Shown here: piece after piece, positions 5,566 to 27,866 of the stretch | Layout of the letters: each line of letters starts with the position of its first letter | Numbering within the stretch: position 1 is the first letter of the stretch | NCBI GenBank assembly: GCA_025454315.1 | Contig: JALOOP010000048.1 | Location: 1-33,177, forward strand | Reading direction: 5' to 3' | DNA length: 33,177 bases | Source: Oculatellaceae cyanobacterium Prado106 | GTDB lineage: Bacteria > Cyanobacteriota > Cyanobacteriia > Elainellales > Elainellaceae | Made by a program: the position numbers and the translations under genes | The notes under the pieces: generated by a model | Told to the model about the DNA's origin: nothing | The model's input: only the letters and a program-made list of their open reading frames with translations | The model's database searches: none

Positions 5566-5670
5566 AATCCGTGAAAACATCCCAAAAAGTGATAGTCTCT
5601 AATTTAAAAGCTGTGTGTATTTGGACTTAATATGAATTCCGATGAATTAAAACTGGGAGGAACCTTACGA

Positions 5671-6093
5671 ATGAAACGTTTGGTGGGTGTGGTAGTTGCC
5701 TTTTTCTTGATGCTCGGATGCTGGACTGGGCTGGGTTCTCAGTCTGCGATCGCCGCCACCTGGGTCAATCCCCTGGGTGCTTCGCCGGTGCTGGCTGTTG
5801 AAGCCCGGAACAAAGTTGACGACAAGCTGGCAACTGAGTTTGGCAAAAAAATTGACTTGAATAACACCAATGTGCGCGCCTTTTCGCAGTACCCTGGTCT
5901 ATATCCCACGCTAGCTCGAAAGATCATTGACAATGCGCCCTACAACGATATCAACGATGTTTTTGACTTGCCTGGGCTGACCGAGCGGCAATCTGAGCTT
6001 CTCAAAAACAACCTGAAAAACTTTACGCTTTCTCCGCCGGAAGATGCGTTGGTGGAAGGGGGCGATCGCTTTAATAATGGGATCTACCGTTAA
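5671..6093 (+). CDS. psbU: Photosystem II 12 kDa extrinsic protein PsbU
   Basis: PsbU is a lumenal subunit of the oxygen-evolving side of photosystem II in cyanobacteria, stabilising the manganese cluster and chloride retention. The start [18 protein letters not shown] is a hydrophobic signal peptide ending near SAIAA, consistent with export to the lumen. The mature part has the PsbU helix-hairpin-helix-like pattern: [36 protein letters not shown] and [20 protein letters not shown] 5671 has a Shine-Dalgarno GGGAGG at 5655-5660; an in-frame ATG at 5632 would put 13 hydrophilic residues before the signal peptide and is less likely. Length is 140 residues, normal for PsbU precursors. A candidate -10 (TAATTTAA) lies about 30 bases before 5632. 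Confidence 0.95.
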
Positions 6094-14050: not shown

Positions 14051-14536
14051 TTAGCTCAAGCCAGAGCAGATGTAGTCGAGGTAAACGCCCATTTCTTTAC
14101 CAGCATCAGCACCCACTAGGCTAGCGGTGACTTCTTTGATGGCTTGGATGGCTTGGACGGTTGCCGCAACGGGAACACCCAGGGAGTTGTAGGTTTCTTT
14201 CAGACCATTCAGCACGCGCTCATCCAGGATGGAGGGGTCGCCAGCCAGCATGGCATAGGTGGAATAGCGGAGGTAGTAGTCGAGGTCACGAATACAAGCC
14301 GCATAGCGACGGGTGGTGTACATGTTGCCACCGGGACGGGTGATGTCAGAGTACAGCAGGGACTTAGCCACAGCTTCTTTGACGATCGCAGCAGCATTGG
14401 CGCTGATGGCGGTAGCGGCACGAACGCGGAGTTCGCCGCTGGAGAAATAGCCTTTGAGCTTGTCGAGAGCAGAGGCATCCAGGTACTTACCCTGGACATC
14501 AGCCGAGTTGATTACAGCAGTAATTGCGTCTTGCAT
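14051..14536 (-). CDS. apcB: Allophycocyanin beta subunit ApcB
   Basis: This 161-residue phycobiliprotein forms allophycocyanin alpha-beta heterodimers and trimers in the phycobilisome core, passing excitation to the terminal emitters. Cys81 ([15 protein letters not shown]) is the phycocyanobilin attachment site. Asn71 in PGGNMY is the conserved asparagine that is N-methylated in beta subunits. Length is exactly canonical. Shine-Dalgarno AAGGAAG (minus strand) lies at 14547-14553, ten bases from the ATG. The gene is 138 bases behind apcA on the same strand. Confidence 0.98.
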
Positions 14537-14674: not shown

Positions 14675-15160
14675 TTACTGCATAGCACCGATAACGTAAT
14701 CGAAGTAAGCACCAGCTTCAGCCGCATCATCACCGGACATCATGGCAAGAGCAGCACTCTTCATGGCACCGACGCCAGCCGCGACTGCATCGACGGGGGT
14801 TCCGAGAGACTTGTACATCTCACGCACGCCGACGATACCGATTTCTTCGATGGGGGTGACATCACCGGAAACCACACCGTAGGTCACCAGACGCAGGTAG
14901 TAGTCCAGGTCACGCAGGCAGGTAGCGGTCATTTCTTCACCGTAGGCGTTGCCACCGGGGGAAACAACGTCAGGGCGCTTTTGGAACAGGGCATCGCCAG
15001 CTTGCTTGACGATTCTTTCGCGAGAATCGGTCAACACTTGCGCGATCCGCAGACGACGCTCACCAGAAGCTACGAAGCCTCTGATTTGATCCAATTCGCC
15101 AGGGCTGAGATAACGAGCCTCGGCATCCGCATTCACGATTGACTTCGTGACAATACTCAT
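14675..15160 (-). CDS. apcA: Allophycocyanin alpha subunit ApcA
   Basis: This 161-residue partner of ApcB carries phycocyanobilin at Cys81 ([14 protein letters not shown]), with the usual [20 protein letters not shown] start and the ending [10 protein letters not shown]. It is the first gene of the cluster. A strong Shine-Dalgarno GGAGGAA lies at 15168-15174 (minus strand). In many cyanobacteria apcE precedes apcA; here a divergent glycosyltransferase gene occupies that side, so the core-membrane linker gene must lie elsewhere. Confidence 0.98.
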
Positions 15161-16929: not shown

Positions 16930-17175
16930 ATGGAAACCGTAAACATTCATCAGGCTAAAACCCATCTCTCACGGCTTTTGTCTCGTGTGGAGCTTGGGGA
17001 AGAAATTATTATTTCCAATCGAGGTATCCCGATCGCAAAGTTAGTTCCGTTTCATCCCTCATCCGATCGACGAGCCAGCTTAGGGCTAGATCAAGGGCAT
17101 TTTGTCGTGCCCGATGACTTTGATGCTCCGCTACCGGAAGAAATCCTGGCCGCATTTGAAGGCGGTGAAGCGTGA
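16930..17175 (+). CDS. Type II antitoxin, Phd/YefM family
   Basis: This 81-residue protein begins METVNIHQAKTHLSRLLSRV, the DNA-binding Phd/YefM fold, followed by GEEIIISNRGIPIAKLVP, the classical signature. The acidic C-terminal tail (DDFDAPLPEEILAAFEGGE) would wrap and neutralise the toxin. It overlaps the toxin gene by 4 bases (GTGA), so the two are translationally coupled. A palindrome just upstream may be its operator. Confidence 0.92.
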   Translation: METVNIHQAKTHLSRLLSRVELGEEIIISNRGIPIAKLVPFHPSSDRRASLGLDQGHFVVPDDFDAPLPEEILAAFEGGEA

Positions 17176-17573
17176 AGCTCTTGTTGGATACCCAATGCTG
17201 GTTATGGTGGTTTGCCCAGCCGGAACGATTGAGTGAGGAGGCCATTACACAGATCGCCGATGAAGCCAACGAGCTATGGTTCTCGGTTGCTAGCATCTGG
17301 GAAATTGGCATCAAAGTTGCGATCGGCAAGTTGCCATTACCGGAGTCGCCTGATAGCTATATTTCTAGCCGGATGAATCAGCTAGGTGTGAGAGCATTAG
17401 AAATTACGGCAACTCATGCTTTACAGGCTGCTGCACTACCGCTGCATCACCGAGATCCGTTTGACCGAATGTTGATTGCACAAACACAGCTAGAAGACAT
17501 GACCCTGGTAAGCGCTGATGCAATCTTCAGGCAGTACAGCAATGTTTCGATGATCTGGGCGACCCATTCCTAA
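17172..17573 (+). CDS. Type II toxin, VapC-like PIN-domain ribonuclease (COG3744)
   Basis: This 133-residue protein has a PIN domain with the acidic metal-binding residues visible: Asp6 (LLLDTQ), Glu44 (SIWEIGIK), Asp95/Asp98 (HRDPFDRML) and Asp116 (LVSADAIF). PIN toxins cleave RNA, often tRNA or rRNA; the target here is unknown. It starts with GTG inside the antitoxin stop. All expected catalytic residues are present, so the toxin looks intact. Such pairs are commonly moved between cyanobacterial genomes. Confidence 0.92.
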   Translation: MKLLLDTQCWLWWFAQPERLSEEAITQIADEANELWFSVASIWEIGIKVAIGKLPLPESPDSYISSRMNQLGVRALEITATHALQAAALPLHHRDPFDRMLIAQTQLEDMTLVSADAIFRQYSNVSMIWATHS

Positions 17574-19239: not shown

Positions 19240-20910
19240 TTATTTAAACCTTCCCGATCGCAAGATCGTAAAAATCAGCCATAGTCCCAGTAAACTTGCT
19301 GCGCCAAAGAAGATATTGCCAATGAGATGAACCTGGGGCGTTTGCTGTCCGGTCGAGAGAATGGCCGCGCCAATAATCAGCGAACCTACGACAGTGCTGA
19401 ACGATCGCCGATTTGCCGCATCATCCAAGGTTCTCCGTAGAGCGTTGAAGTCCTGAATGGAGAGATTGAGACGCAGGGTTTCGGAACTGAGGCGGTTGAG
19501 CAGGAATCCGATTTGGCGGGGCGATTCCAGGGAGAGTTCTTTGAATTCCAGGGCGGTTCTGAGGAACGATCGCGTCGGGTCTTTGCCCATCAGTTGTTGT
19601 CGAAATAGGTCGCTCATCAAGGGCGTAATTTCTTCGACAATATTGACCGTCGGATCAAACTCGCGTCCGGCTCCTTCCAGGTTGGCCAGGGATTTGGTCA
19701 AGAGGCCAATGTTGCTGGGCAGCTTGAGGTTGTTCATGCGGGCAGCTTGCAGAATGGCTCCAAAGGCTTCGCCCACGTTGAGATTGGAGAGGTTGACGTT
19801 GAGGTAGCGGCGGAGGAGGCGATCGTAGTCCGTCTGGAGGCGAATCACGTTGATCGGCTGGGTGACATCCATCGGTTTGGCCAGTTGCAGAGTCACCTGG
19901 GCACAGCGCTCTGGGTCAGCGTCAATAATCGCCAGAATCAGTTCCACCATCAGGTATTGGGTACGGGAATCCAGCACGCCCATCATGCCGCAGTCCAGAA
20001 TTCCAGCCCGACCATCTTCTAGATAAAACAGATTGCCAGGATGCGGATCGGCATGGAAAAATCCATCGATGAGATATTGCTGGAGAAATGCTCGAAATAG
20101 CAGTGTGGTGAAGGCTTGGCGTTCGTCTTTTTCTTCAGGCGTGAGTTTTGAGTTGACCGATTCTTTGCCGAACTTGGATTGCAGAATGGGTTTGCCTTCC
20201 AGCCATTCTAAAACTAGAATCTTTTTGCCCGAAAGCTCGTGATAGACCTTGGGAATGACGATTTTTTGGGTATCGAACCAGCGGCTACTAGCCAGGTTGC
20301 GGCGCAAGTCGTCGGTATAGGTGGCTTCTTGGTTAAAGTTCAGTTCCTTTTGCAGGGAAGTGCTAAACTCGTCAGCCAGCGCCACAATGCTGTAGCGCTT
20401 GCCAAAATTGGTCGTCTCCAGCAGCATGGCAATCTGCTTAAAGACGGAAATATCCCGCGACACGATCGTATCAATGCCGGGACGCTGGATTTTGACCGCG
20501 ACCGATTCGCCGTTTTTCAGGGTGGCGCGGTGGATTTGGGCGATCGATCCGGCTGCGATCGCCGTCTCACTAATCTCCGCAAACACATCATCCAGCGGCA
20601 TCCCCAACTGTTGCCGCAGTTCTGCCTCAATCTGCACCCAGGGCACGGGCGGCACATTGGACTGCAAATTACTCAACGCCTCAATATAGGAAGGCGGCAG
20701 CAGATCTGGACGAGTGCTGAGCAGTTGCCCCAACTTGACATAAACCGGACCCAAATCCCTGAGAATTTTGCAGAGAATCTCAGGGGCGGGAATCTCAGGT
20801 TCATCGCCTTTGCCAAGGGTGAGCAGTTGGCGCATGTAGTCCCACCCATAGCGGATCAGGACTTCGATAATGTCCCGTTGGCGGGCGATCGGGGTGATGA
20901 GGGCGGACAT
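19240..20910 (-). CDS. ABC1/AarF/UbiB family kinase-like protein
   Basis: This 556-residue atypical kinase has the family signatures: the KxGQ motif in YVKLGQLLSTRPDLLP, the Ala-rich loop in IAAGSIAQIHRATL, the ATP-binding Lys in VAVKIQRPG, the catalytic FFHADPHPGNLF and the metal-binding LDCGMMG. Two hydrophobic segments at the C-terminus (LIIGAAILSTG and GNIFFGAASLLGLWLIFTIL) anchor it to a membrane. In cyanobacteria these proteins are linked to quinone, prenyl-lipid or photosynthetic membrane homeostasis. Several paralogues usually exist, so no gene symbol is given. The start is followed upstream (minus strand) by a CCCCACT array reaching the ATG. Confidence 0.93.
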   Translation of the reverse strand: MSALITPIARQRDIIEVLIRYGWDYMRQLLTLGKGDEPEIPAPEILCKILRDLGPVYVKLGQLLSTRPDLLPPSYIEALSNLQSNVPPVPWVQIEAELRQQLGMPLDDVFAEISETAIAAGSIAQIHRATLKNGESVAVKIQRPGIDTIVSRDISVFKQIAMLLETTNFGKRYSIVALADEFSTSLQKELNFNQEATYTDDLRRNLASSRWFDTQKIVIPKVYHELSGKKILVLEWLEGKPILQSKFGKESVNSKLTPEEKDERQAFTTLLFRAFLQQYLIDGFFHADPHPGNLFYLEDGRAGILDCGMMGVLDSRTQYLMVELILAIIDADPERCAQVTLQLAKPMDVTQPINVIRLQTDYDRLLRRYLNVNLSNLNVGEAFGAILQAARMNNLKLPSNIGLLTKSLANLEGAGREFDPTVNIVEEITPLMSDLFRQQLMGKDPTRSFLRTALEFKELSLESPRQIGFLLNRLSSETLRLNLSIQDFNALRRTLDDAANRRSFSTVVGSLIIGAAILSTGQQTPQVHLIGNIFFGAASLLGLWLIFTILRSGRFK

Positions 20911-23021: not shown

Positions 23022-23082
23022 CTGCAAAAAGTAAAGAGGGGGAGGTTTGCGTCGCAAACCTCCCCCTCTTTACTTTTTGCAG
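23022..23082. terminator. 61-bp perfect palindrome behind the RPIxAS repeat gene
   Basis: Thirty bases (23022-23051, starting CTGCAAAAAGTAAAGAGG) are followed by one T and then their exact reverse complement (23053-23082). It begins 12 bases after the stop of the minus-strand repeat-protein gene. The stem is far longer than a normal intrinsic terminator and has no typical T run behind it. It could stop transcription, protect the mRNA end or be a small mobile palindrome. Confidence 0.6.
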
Positions 23083-23094
23083 TTCTCTTTAAGA

Positions 23095-23733
23095 CTAATC
23101 CAGGAAGCCCATCAGGGTTTCGCTGTCGTCGATTTCGTTGGAGGCGATCGGGCGACCACCGGGGAGGAGGCTGGCTTCTAGGAGATGGGGGTCACTGGCC
23201 ATGATGGGGCGACCGCCGGGGAGGGTGAGGTCATCGCGGACGACGAGATCGCTGGCGAAGACGGGGCGCTGTCCGGGGAGGGCGAATTCTGCGACTTGCA
23301 GGTGGCTAGCCATGATGGGACGGCCATTGAGGATGGTGCCATAGACATCCATGTGGCTGGCGGCGATGGGGCGTAGACCTGCCGACGCGAAGGTGTCTGC
23401 GACTTCGATCGCGCCTGCGGATACGGGGCGATCGGCGATGTAGGTGGGGGCTGCGACCTGGATTTCGCCTTTCTTGTCAGGTTGGCCGTTGCCATTTTCG
23501 GGCTTTTGAGCCAGTTCTAGTTTGCCTGCTTTGGCGGTGCCGCCGTTTTCGACTTTTTGTTCTACCATGAGTTCCTCCGTTTCACCTGCGGTTTTAAGTT
23601 CTACTGCGTTATCTGATGTGTTATCAGGATGGGTTGCCGCGCTGGATGTAGGGCTGGTTGCCGTATCTGCTGCTTTGGCAACTTGGCCTCTACCTCTACG
23701 ACTGCCTGCTCTTGATGCGCCATTGGTTGCCAT
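23095..23733 (-). CDS. Cyanobacterial protein with six RPIxAS repeats, function unknown
   Basis: The 212-residue protein has a basic, disordered N-terminus (MATNGASRAGSRRGRG) and a polar linker to about residue 100. Then come six tandem repeats of 17-19 residues starting with RP at 102, 121, 138, 156, 175 and 194. The consensus is RPIxASxLxVxxxxxLPGG (for example RPIMASHLQVAEFALPGQ). It ends with an acidic tail (DDSETLMGFLD). Such short Gly-Pro-bounded repeats suggest a repetitive beta structure; that is inference. I recall similar RPI-AS repeats in other cyanobacterial hypothetical proteins but no known role. A 61-bp palindrome follows and 17-bp iterons precede the gene. Confidence 0.75.
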   Translation of the reverse strand: MATNGASRAGSRRGRGQVAKAADTATSPTSSAATHPDNTSDNAVELKTAGETEELMVEQKVENGGTAKAGKLELAQKPENGNGQPDKKGEIQVAAPTYIADRPVSAGAIEVADTFASAGLRPIAASHMDVYGTILNGRPIMASHLQVAEFALPGQRPVFASDLVVRDDLTLPGGRPIMASDPHLLEASLLPGGRPIASNEIDDSETLMGFLD

Positions 23734-23751
23734 GAGTCAATACCCCTAAAC

Positions 23752-23802
23752 CATTACCCGTAACCTTGCATTACCCGTAGCCTTGCATTACCTGTAACCT
23801 TG
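23752..23802. repeat. Three tandem 17-bp repeats upstream of the RPIxAS gene
   Basis: CATTACCCGTAACCTTG occurs three times head to tail (23752, 23769, 23786) with single-base differences, beginning 19 bases before the start codon of the minus-strand gene. The position suggests either a leader element or a regulator-binding array. The remaining gap up to 24112 shows no gene. Confidence 0.8.
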
Positions 23803-24070
23803 CGAAATCATTATGCTGAAATCGCTGCGATCGGAATCAATCCAGCAACCCTAAATTTCATGGAATGACCCAATGAATTAGGAGATTTGAATTGCTCAGT
23901 TATCAGGATCAGCTATCAGTAAATGTTATTTTGCCCTACCACTAGAGTATAGGCACAGGTGAATTAGCGCAATCTAAATGTAGAGGCTCGAAATACACGC
24001 TATTTCTTAATAATCAAGTCCTTATCGTTGATATTTAAGTGACTTATCAATAAGCTTTGTAAAGCGAGTC

Positions 24071-24112: not shown

Positions 24113-24904
24113 TTAGGATTGCAGGATTTGGTATAGGTAATAGGTGGCCATGGGAATGATGGTCGCGAGTGCAAGTAGCACAATCACCACAATAGTGGCG
24201 CTGCGATCGTCGGTTTCTTCAGCCGTGGCAAAGGTGCTTTCGGTGTTGATGTCGTTGGTGACGATCGGGGGGCCGGGGTCGGGTTGTCCGGTGAGGATGG
24301 CGGTGAGGCGATCGCCCGCATCTTCAAAGGCTTGGTTGTACTTGCCGCCGCGCAAAGGCACCATCATGGTTTCCTGGGTAATGCTGTCGGCCATCTCATC
24401 GGAGAGCAGCGATTTGACCTCGGTTCCGGTTTGGATGGCGATCGTATTGGTGACATTATCTAGCACCACCAGGATCTGATTGGCTTGTTCTTCCGCAGTG
24501 GGAAACCATTTTTGGAACAAGTCCTGGGCAAAGCTGTCGATCGTTTCTTCGTAATCGAGCCGATGGATGGTGACAAACCGCACCTCATTCCCGGTAGACT
24601 GAGCGAGAGCATCGAGTTGGCTAATCAATTCTCCTTGAGTCAAACGGCTAAGTACACCCGCCTGATCGACTAATCGCGTGATGTCTCCAGCCTTTAGCGT
24701 CGGCATGTTGTAAACGCCTGTGGCTTGGGCCGGTAATGGATTGATCAACCAAGTCGTGCAGCAGATGATGAACCCCACAAGGCTCAGCATCCAGGTTGTT
24801 AGCCATGCCTGCCTGGAGGGAACTTGGAATTGCAAGATGCGATCGGGAACTAATGTCCGATTTTTTTGAGGTAGCCAATTTTTTTGAGGCAGGGAGTGTA
24901 TCAT
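24113..24904 (-). CDS. TPM-domain protein, Psb32-like
   Basis: This 263-residue membrane protein has an N-terminal hydrophobic signal (WMLSLVGFIICCTTWLINP, cleavage probably after PAQA). A TPM domain follows (about 70-205) with ITRLVDQAGVLSRLTQGELI, NEVRFVTIHRLDYEETIDSF and NQILVVLDNVTNTIAIQTG. A C-terminal membrane helix (TIVVIVLLALATIIPMATYY) follows a 30-residue acidic linker. In cyanobacteria and plants the TPM protein Psb32 protects photosystem II against photodamage and helps its repair; size and topology fit. The first 30 residues are hydrophilic, so translation may begin later, for example at the Met just before LSLVGF. Confidence 0.87.
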   Translation of the reverse strand: MIHSLPQKNWLPQKNRTLVPDRILQFQVPSRQAWLTTWMLSLVGFIICCTTWLINPLPAQATGVYNMPTLKAGDITRLVDQAGVLSRLTQGELISQLDALAQSTGNEVRFVTIHRLDYEETIDSFAQDLFQKWFPTAEEQANQILVVLDNVTNTIAIQTGTEVKSLLSDEMADSITQETMMVPLRGGKYNQAFEDAGDRLTAILTGQPDPGPPIVTNDINTESTFATAEETDDRSATIVVIVLLALATIIPMATYYLYQILQS

Positions 24905-25413
24905 CCTAGACGGTTCTAATAGAGGCTTACTTCAGAATCTTACCAAATCTAGGATCTTCAGGAATCAGGCGATCGCAGCCCCAGCACCCTACCCCAAAAG
25001 GGGTATTAGCATTTTCCCGAAGTCGCTTACCATAATTGAAGCCTTTTCCCAAAAATCTCCAACTTTGCCCCAAAAATTATTTCAATAAAAGCAACTGTAA
25101 TAAATTCCCCACCTTCTAGAATTTCCACTCAATCCATTCCCACCCTAAAAAATCTTGTATAAAGGTAACTAGCCCATCCCTGAAGTCGCACCTCGTCCCC
25201 TCAAAATATCTCCCCTAAATCACCCCAGACAAACCAATTTACTTCCCCACTCCCTACTCCCCACTCCCTACCCCCCACTCCCCACTCCCCACTCCCCACT
25301 CCCCACTCCCCACTCCCCACTCCCCACTCCCCACTCTCCCCCGTTTCAATACCTGTAACTCCCCCCACCTCCCCCGTCCCCCTGTCTATCCTGGAAACAT
25401 CTATCCTGGAACT
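24905..25413. other. 509-base intergenic region with CCCCACT array
   Basis: This region contains the divergent promoters of the Psb32-like and DUF3038 genes. A small palindrome TACCCC-AAAA-GGGGTA lies at 24990-25005 and a possible -10 (TATAAA) at about 25156. A pyrimidine array follows from 25243 to about 25342, in which nine ACTCCCC heptamers run with exact 7-base spacing (25277-25335). No gene is supported. Confidence 0.7.
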
Positions 25414-26291: not shown

Positions 26292-27800
26292 ATGTCCACC
26301 TCCGTTCTCCGCCGATACACTCCCCCGACCTGCACCCTAGAGATTGCAGCGATCGGTTCTGCGTTGTCGCGTTGGACCGACCGTGCTGTACTCAAGAATT
26401 TGCGGTTTCAGTTGAGTTTTGATGACCCGAAGCTGCCGCCGGATCAGCAGGTGACGATTCGGGGCGATCGCAATCAGCTAGAAGCCCTCTGGGAAGTGGT
26501 TTCTACCTATATCCAAAATATTTTGATTGAGCCTGCACCCCAGTCTCTTTCATTAGGCTCAGCTACGGTTGACCATCCGGTTGACCCTGTCATGGATCAG
26601 GCCGTGGATCAGGCCATGGATCAGGCCATGGATCAGTCTATGGATCATCAGAGTCAGTCTTCGGTTTCGACTCTGGATCAAGCGCCTCATCTCCTGACGG
26701 CTCATCCTTCTGGGGTATCGCTTCAGCCTAGAGGGTTCCTTTCCCATGAACTGGCTTTGGGCACATTGGCGACCGAAGAATCCGGGTCTGTGATTCAGTT
26801 GAGTGCTTTGCAACTGTTTGATCTGGCGAATGCCTTGGATGATTACTACGCCGAAGTGATGACCCTGCCCAGTTTGGGACGTGCCCGGTGGTCTAAGGCT
26901 CCTGTAGGGTGGATGCAGGCGGCAGCGGCTGCGGTGCTGGTGGTGGGCGTGTCGGTTCCGGTGGCTCGGTTTGTCATGGATGTTTCTAGCCCCAACTTGC
27001 AAACCGCCACAGCCCCAACTACCCGAGAGATTGATATCAATTCGGCGCGTAGACCCATGCCGCCTAGCCTGCCGATTCCCACGTCACCGGGAGCAACGCC
27101 GCCGCCGCTGGTGTTAACACCGCTAACGCCTCCCGCAGCACCTCCCGTTGGGGTGACAGAGCCGCCTGCGGTGACTGCGCCTGTGCTGCCGCCCCAGCCG
27201 ACGATTCCGGACAGCGTCCAGCCGGAGCCAAAAACCACGATCGAGATTCCGGCAGAAACCGAGATGCCCAGCATTCCGGCTCCGGCAGCAGCGCCTAGCG
27301 TGACCGCATCGGCACCGCCGCGTCTGGAGGGGATTACTGAACCTGGGGCGATCGCTTCCTCTAATTCCCCTGCCAGTGCCTCCACCTTGGAACAAGAACT
27401 GGGAGCCGCCGGACTCTCGGCAGATAGTGCCGCTGGAATGGCCTCCAGCAGTGCTGCTCGAAGTGCCCCAATGGCAGCCAGTCCCAGTGCAGCCGCAGAG
27501 AACTCGACTTCGGGTAGCCTCTCCCAGGTGGCTGAGGTGAAAGATTATTTTCAACAGCGCTGGTCACCGCCTGCGGAACTGACCGAAACCCTGGAATATC
27601 GGCTATTGCTCAATGCCGATGGCTCATTGCAACGGATTGTCCCGCTGGGCGAATCCTCGGCCAATTTCCTCGATCGCACCAATATGCCCCTGATGGGTGA
27701 ACCGTTTGTCTCTCCGACCAGCGACGGCACAACCCCTCAAATTCGCCTGGTGCTGGGTTCTGACGGTAAAGTGCAGACCTTTTTGGAATATGCAAATTAG
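26292..27800 (+). CDS. DUF4335 domain membrane protein
   Basis: The 502-residue protein opens with MSTSVLRRYTPPTCTLEIAA, the hallmark of DUF4335. Its globular N-terminal part reaches about residue 195 and is interrupted by an MDQA repeat (residues 101-120) coded by five 12-bp units. One membrane helix follows (about 215-235, AAAAVLVVGVSVPVARFVM), then a Pro/Ala/Thr-rich linker of nearly 200 residues (about 240-415). The last 80 residues are globular: VKDYFQQRWSPPAELTETLE to the end. Its topology resembles TonB-like or wall-spanning proteins, with a cytoplasmic head, one helix and an extended periplasmic arm; that is inference. It pairs with DUF3038. Confidence 0.88.
   Translation: MSTSVLRRYTPPTCTLEIAAIGSALSRWTDRAVLKNLRFQLSFDDPKLPPDQQVTIRGDRNQLEALWEVVSTYIQNILIEPAPQSLSLGSATVDHPVDPVMDQAVDQAMDQAMDQSMDHQSQSSVSTLDQAPHLLTAHPSGVSLQPRGFLSHELALGTLATEESGSVIQLSALQLFDLANALDDYYAEVMTLPSLGRARWSKAPVGWMQAAAAAVLVVGVSVPVARFVMDVSSPNLQTATAPTTREIDINSARRPMPPSLPIPTSPGATPPPLVLTPLTPPAAPPVGVTEPPAVTAPVLPPQPTIPDSVQPEPKTTIEIPAETEMPSIPAPAAAPSVTASAPPRLEGITEPGAIASSNSPASASTLEQELGAAGLSADSAAGMASSSAARSAPMAASPSAAAENSTSGSLSQVAEVKDYFQQRWSPPAELTETLEYRLLLNADGSLQRIVPLGESSANFLDRTNMPLMGEPFVSPTSDGTTPQIRLVLGSDGKVQTFLEYAN
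26592..26651 (+). repeat. Five in-frame 12-bp repeats in the DUF4335 gene
   Basis: ATGGATCAGGCC-like units of 12 bases occur five times (26592, 26604, 26616, 26628, 26640) and encode MDQA VDQA MDQA MDQS MDHQ. The last unit is diverged. Such perfect in-frame repetition suggests recent slippage expansion in a tolerant linker. Confidence 0.85.
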
Positions 27801-27866
27801 GGAGTGGGGAGTGGGGAGTGGGGAGTGGGGAGTGGGGAGTGGGGAGTGGGGAGTGGGGAGTGGGGA
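27801..27866 (+). repeat. GGGGAGT heptamer array behind DUF4335
   Basis: Nine AGT-bearing heptamers with exact 7-base period follow the DUF4335 stop codon directly. They are the reverse complement of the nine-unit array at 25277-25335, so the two-gene DUF3038-DUF4335 unit is bracketed by inverted copies. Only 13-17 bases separate the array from the convergent gamma-glutamyltransferase stop. Confidence 0.9.

Follow-up and report, generated by a model that had tools for sequence, protein, structure and literature searches.

RPIxAS-repeat proteins, a conserved and unnamed cyanobacterial family with a near-invariant C-terminal peptide and a possible scaffold role

What does a small protein do when half of it consists of short, regular repeats and no enzymatic motif is in sight? 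Such a protein is encoded in the stretch of DNA analysed here (the window, 33,177 nucleotides in full). Here, we describe its repeats and genomic surroundings, its distribution among cyanobacteria, the fold predicted for a relative, and the roles that have to be weighed against one another.

The repeat gene and its surroundings

The gene, its parts and the neighbouring elements are as follows.

23095..23733, minus strand: gene of the RPIxAS-repeat protein, 212 amino acids, with ATG start and stop; homologues found
23431..23733, minus strand: N-terminal tail, residues 1–101, variable, of low hydrophobicity, basic at its start only
23374..23430, minus strand: repeat unit 1, residues 102–120, 19 amino acids, missing or degenerate in several relatives
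23323..23373, minus strand: repeat unit 2, residues 121–137, 17 amino acids
23269..23322, minus strand: repeat unit 3, residues 138–155, 18 amino acids
23212..23268, minus strand: repeat unit 4, residues 156–174, 19 amino acids
23155..23211, minus strand: repeat unit 5, residues 175–193, 19 amino acids
23098..23154, minus strand: last unit and acidic tail, residues 194–212, RPIASNEIDDSETLMGFLD
23098..23115, minus strand: near-invariant C-terminal motif, LMGFLD-COOH
23752..23803, no strand: 17-bp direct repeat in three copies, upstream of the repeat-gene start
23022..23082, no strand: perfect inverted repeat with 30-nt arms and a 1-nt spacer, downstream of the repeat-gene stop
24113–24904, minus strand: Psb32 (NF047379), a protein of photosystem II repair, immediately upstream of the repeat gene

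Six RP[IV] signatures, at residues 102, 121, 138, 156, 175 and 194, define units of 19, 17, 18, 19, 19 and 19 residues that together cover residues 102–212. In 20,000 shuffles of the protein the signature occurred at most three times (and that once), against six in the real sequence, which confirms the six units of 17–19 residues with an RP start named in the original prediction. The LPGG-type unit ends proposed with them hold for three of the six (LPGQ, LPGG and LPGG), but two others close with SAGL and LNG, and the sixth forms the tail. Likewise, the N-terminal tail had been called basic, which is true of residues 1–30 (five K+R, one D+E) but not of residues 1–95, where charges are balanced (12 K+R, 13 D+E). 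The acidic C-terminal tail is real, with five D+E and no K+R in residues 199–212. A hydropathy test, as distinct from a signal-peptide predictor, found no stretch hydrophobic enough to serve as a signal peptide or membrane anchor, either in the window protein or in 56 aligned family members (maximum 19-residue Kyte–Doolittle value 0.84 and 1.28, respectively). By eye, an AGGGG at 23743–23747 (minus strand) lies 9 nt ahead of the ATG. When, as a check on coding status, the C-terminal 116 codons are compared with those of five homologues, 66–76 differences fall at third, 14–34 at first and 11–18 at second positions.

Both flanking elements that had been reported, the repeats in front and the palindrome behind, are present, but the isolated, tightly controlled unit read from them is not supported. 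The palindrome amounts to a terminator-like hairpin of bidirectional type, and two other contigs carry weaker, partial matches to it. The genome has no copies of the 17-bp repeats besides those at 23752–23803, and relatives show nothing equivalent in their upstream DNA. The gene upstream, Psb32, is on the same strand.

The neighbours could themselves point to a role, in photosystem II repair with Psb32 or in DNA repair and stress with UvrB. Of 30 same-family loci, 17 have Psb32 upstream in the same orientation; among 28 loci from other families (L035–L062), 20 have a divergent uvrB. These counts are lower bounds, since the flanks covered 1.5 kb and some loci reach contig ends. The two neighbourhoods are, however, lineage-specific and mutually exclusive in these loci, and class-wide no neighbour is general (of 23 regions, 8 have UvrB and 3 have Psb32). 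We therefore regard a function shared with these neighbours as highly unlikely. In 12 of the 30 same-family loci the repeat gene has an ABC1/UbiB-like kinase gene downstream in the same orientation; in the window (19240–20910) the kinase gene is separated from the repeat gene by an SDR dehydrogenase gene and another gene.

Elsewhere in the window, the genes for allophycocyanin beta and alpha (14054–14536 and 14678–15160, minus strand; TIGR01337 and NF058521 over cut-off) confirm a phycobilisome-bearing cyanobacterium. PsbU, an extrinsic photosystem II protein, is encoded at 5632–6090 (plus strand). At 16930–17573 (plus strand) a Phd-type antitoxin gene overlaps by 4 bases a 133-amino-acid frame that looks by eye like a PIN toxin and has no NCBIfam row. 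Many arrays of 7-bp units (ACTCCCC type) occupy intergenic DNA, at 2907–2976, 25244–25336, 27800–27866 and other sites.

A conserved cyanobacterial family

Far from being a singleton, the window protein is one of a family that spans most of the cyanobacterial class, with 203 of 242 genomes matching a broader profile (A4). A profile search at E 0.001 found matches in 55 of 60 related genomes, its own included; the five others are G020 and G028 (78% and 82% complete), G036, G051 and G052. Within the window's own family (f1), 34 of 36 genomes have the gene. At least 19 of the 39 class genomes that A4 does not match belong to one small-genome family, f2, and a direct search of f2 found no match in 61 genomes with the same profile that matches in 203 class genomes. 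The f2 genomes measure 1.0–3.9 Mb and are presumably those of picocyanobacteria with alpha-carboxysomes. Matches in another family, f17, are marginal (E 6e-4 to 2e-6). A narrower profile matched 124 of 386 genomes drawn across the phylum and, among the matches listed, all are in the window's class; a scan for close relatives over 84,980 species returned two loci, both cyanobacterial, and a plasmid search gave repeat matches in Nostocales only. A phage origin was rejected: tblastn against 50,697 phage records gave no match, and PHROGs none for two family proteins.

The family is absent from the collections of known families that we searched. Pfam gave no match for the window protein and scattered weak rows only for the 56 members; in NCBIfam the window protein has nothing near cut-off, and 38 members again give scattered weak rows. 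These rows (TRM1, AIDA-I, S17 and others) concern single or scattered members and were taken as chance. A search of PDB sequences gave no match up to E 10. In agreement with the absence of an enzymatic motif noted at the outset, the searches of Pfam, NCBIfam and PHROGs found no enzymatic family. A literature search, with most subscription papers outside its reach, listed no paper describing the family, and one with six family peptides gave no paper at all. The RPIxAS-repeat proteins are a real family, conserved in cyanobacteria and unnamed.

The C-terminus is constrained. All 56 aligned members end in [FY][ILMV]D and 52 of them in LMG[FY][IL]D, although the profiles used to find them included this end, and truncated relatives may be under-counted. 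A DNA search for LMG[FY][IL]D followed by a stop, which is independent of the family profiles, hit the family gene in each of 10 genomes; 11 of its 12 hits are this gene and the twelfth is the end of a 43-residue stop-to-stop frame, while the reversed pattern gave no hit in the same genomes. Retention in 203 of the 242 class genomes, a near-fixed C-terminus and the lack of a Pfam or NCBIfam entry suggest that the family likely does something basic in cyanobacteria that has yet to be named, and the repeat profile and C-terminal motif offer a direct experimental handle on it.

Two further ideas, on the tails and on the long members, were rejected. The tail is not universally basic or AT-hook-like (27 of the 54 tailed members have a basic cluster, 2 of 54 one of RGR type), and the frames of 280–428 amino acids at L151–L155, inspected by eye for fusions to known domains, have longer tails or more repeats and no added domain. 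One homologue (L151:2508-3794) has a K/A/T-rich, histone H1-like N-terminal tail of about 300 residues.

Predicted fold and possible roles

Across the 56 aligned members, RP-like starts are 19 residues apart in 154 of 241 cases and 16–20 apart in 230, counted with a pattern that also allows S for R and catches a few chance SP matches. Spacings of 16–18 in the window's own lineage break the strict periodicity, and unit number ranges from 3 (L075) to 11 (L155, counted by eye). In 117 internal units of 19 residues, VILMFYW occupy position 5 in 99%, 10 in 89%, 12 in 98%, 16 in 79% and 18 in 76%, and positions 3, 4, 8, 9, 11 and 14 in 0–11%. Position 7 is A or S in 78 (67%), position 1 is G in 94 and position 8 is S in 87 of the 117; R3 and P4 are constant because they define the unit, whereas G1, S8 and the hydrophobic residues at 10, 12, 16 and 18 play no part in that definition. 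Judged from these sequences, the alternation over the whole unit looks solenoid-like, unlike a short motif with free linkers.

With a 56-sequence alignment, AlphaFold2 did not fold the window protein (mean pLDDT 51.5, pTM 0.18). For L066, a homologue with more regular repeats (C-terminal 133 amino acids, 38 sequences), mean pLDDT was 76.3 and pTM 0.66, with regular short strands and pLDDT blocks of 82–88 across most repeats and the C-terminal peptide at low confidence; the five models of this run spread from 76 down to 54. AlphaFold2 can over-predict solenoids on regular repeats. In VIA, right-handed beta-helices align with the L066 model at 2.1–2.8 A, led by the secretion domain of FHA (Z 12.9, 117 residues) and including the Thermus bactofilin filament 6rib (Z 9.1, 2.4 A, 97 residues) and BacA 2n3d (Z 8.8). 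For many left-handed beta-helix acyltransferases the alignment reaches only about 10 A rmsd. On our interpretation of these rows, the L066 repeats are predicted to form a right-handed parallel beta-helix. The confident match to a known structural family that could have explained the repeats away did not appear: Foldseek against the PDB gave no significant match (best E 0.08) and the VIA matches are generic. Because the window protein stays unfolded in silico, the evidence for a solenoid is the alternation within units and the model of one relative, rather than a model of the window protein itself.

Our favoured reading, held tentatively and with a confidence a little under even, is that of a cytoplasmic, non-enzymatic beta-solenoid scaffold with a flexible N-terminal arm and a C-terminal docking peptide. 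The C-terminal half, with its 3–11 units of about 19 residues, would wind into a right-handed parallel beta-helix, with G1, R3 and P4 at the turn and with positions 5, 7, 10, 12, 16 and 18 pointing inward. The variable N-terminal tail would act as a flexible arm, and the rod would display LMG[FY][IL]D, with its free carboxylate, as a putative docking peptide for a conserved partner. By analogy with bactofilins, the rods may also stack end to end. A scaffold or binding role was among those first suggested and is the best fit, with a mechanism that is only partly supported.

A flexible protein could bind partners as well. In a disordered multivalent binder, comparable perhaps to the repeat linkers that cluster enzymes, each RP[IV]xAS unit would be a short linear motif for a site on a folded partner. 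The failure of AlphaFold2 to find structure in the window protein despite its 56 rows is consistent with this, as are the variable unit number among homologues and an N-terminal tail poor in hydrophobic residues (median fraction 0.16 vs 0.34 in the repeats). Yet constraint and a buried-type alternation run across the full 19-residue period, spacing is near-constant, and the regular homologue is modelled as a beta-helix; a wholly disordered binder is on balance unlikely, if worth keeping in mind.

A rival form of the scaffold idea links the protein to Rubisco, the beta-carboxysome or carbon concentration and puts it under the control of RbcR. At L118 and L120 the repeat gene has divergent uvrB on one side and purN on the other; beyond purN come genes for an AAA ATPase, for a histidine kinase and for murJ (at L120 the order is uvrB, repeat gene, purN, AAA ATPase, small protein, histidine kinase, murJ). 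In Synechocystis we take slr0477 to be purN; with this, the gene order, which at L120 fits slr0476, and slr0488 as the MviN homologue, slr0476 is probably the orthologue of the repeat gene. The assignment of slr0488 comes from PMC3516471, which also has slr0476 down under iron starvation. PMC12014562 places slr0476 in its RbcR-regulon Table 1 with rbcLXS, ccmK-N and sbtA, but gives its change in the sll0528 mutant as log2 -1.02 only. Other papers record slr0476 as a detected protein, raised in an slr1037 deletion (PMC4057619), and among the hypothetical proteins of a hexane proteomics table (PMC3479031). Another candidate orthologue, slr0442, was dropped, as the literature gives it as the minor pilin PilX2.

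The RbcR box itself, with the consensus ATTA(G/A)-N5-(C/T)TAAT given in PMC13249358, argues against such control. Upstream of rbcL, as a positive control, it occurs exactly in 6 of 27 cases (0.08 expected). Upstream of the repeat family it occurs in 0 of 29 (0.17 expected), with up to one mismatch in 4 of 29 (3.5 expected), and exactly once over 84 repeat-gene loci (0.56 expected), and RbcR control of the family is not supported. Nor is there conserved linkage to rbcL, the distance being about 8 kb in G046 and tens of kilobases to megabases in other single-contig genomes. Absence from f2, whose members we suppose to have alpha-carboxysomes, speaks for a carbon-fixation scaffold, but a single clade-wide absence is weak evidence. 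As the box test picks out rbcL and not the family, we keep the link to carbon fixation as a lead only; an RbcR-controlled scaffold of this kind is very unlikely. The broader proposal, of a cyanobacteria-specific beta-solenoid scaffold that organises a conserved partner through the LMG[FY][IL]D carboxylate, possibly in carbon fixation, we hold to be decidedly unlikely.

Comparison with related repeats, adhesins and bactofilins

A second subfamily, with up to nine IDGxRPIxxS-type units, occurs on Nostocales plasmids (L099–L102) and genome contigs (L157–L163). These paralogues, from within the phylum, share the repeat period and the RPI signature, but differ in the acidic turn (DG) before RPI, in their C-terminal peptide and in their patchy occurrence. 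Most copies end in [FY][IVM]D; L158, L159, L161, L162 and L163 end in [FY][IV]D, as family members may, whereas L157 and L160 terminate without a C-terminal peptide.

The secretion domain of FHA and other right-handed beta-helices resemble the homologue's model in overall fold, and the leading VIA row invites the reading of a secreted or surface adhesin. Two-partner secreted adhesins of the FHA type carry an N-terminal signal peptide for export. The repeat protein is much smaller, has no secretion signal and no sequence match in the PDB; the hydropathy maxima of 0.84 and 1.28 leave neither the window protein nor the 56 members with a hydrophobic signal segment, and beta-helices generally score alike in VIA. 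An adhesin is accordingly an extremely improbable reading, and the surface role once thought possible loses its footing, there being no hydrophobic segment for a signal peptide or membrane anchor.

The closest comparison is with bactofilins (PF04519), which are defined by self-assembly into non-polar filaments without nucleotide. They too are small, with flexible termini and short rungs in a right-handed beta-helix, a core modelled here for one homologue but not for the window protein, and the likeness in VIA to 6rib concerns the homologue's model only. The repeat family differs in its RP[IV] signature, its 19-residue units and its C-terminal LMG[FY][IL]D. The PF04519 profile does not match the window protein, PF04519 is not among the 24 Pfam families that gave rows for the 56 members, and profile-profile comparison with it gave a probability of 0.2%. 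True bactofilins are encoded by separate genes in 26 of 40 genomes, the window's own included (G000:C467). These bactofilins (L111:697-1113 in G000:C467; L106–L117) often carry a PEL[VM]G peptide close to their C-terminus, faintly reminiscent of the LMG at the end of the repeat proteins. On the best reading, the repeat protein would work like a bactofilin as proposed, but is not one. Under the broader, decidedly unlikely proposal given above, cyanobacteria would have a further structural element beside the known cytoskeletal proteins and true bactofilins, near-universal outside one small-genome family.
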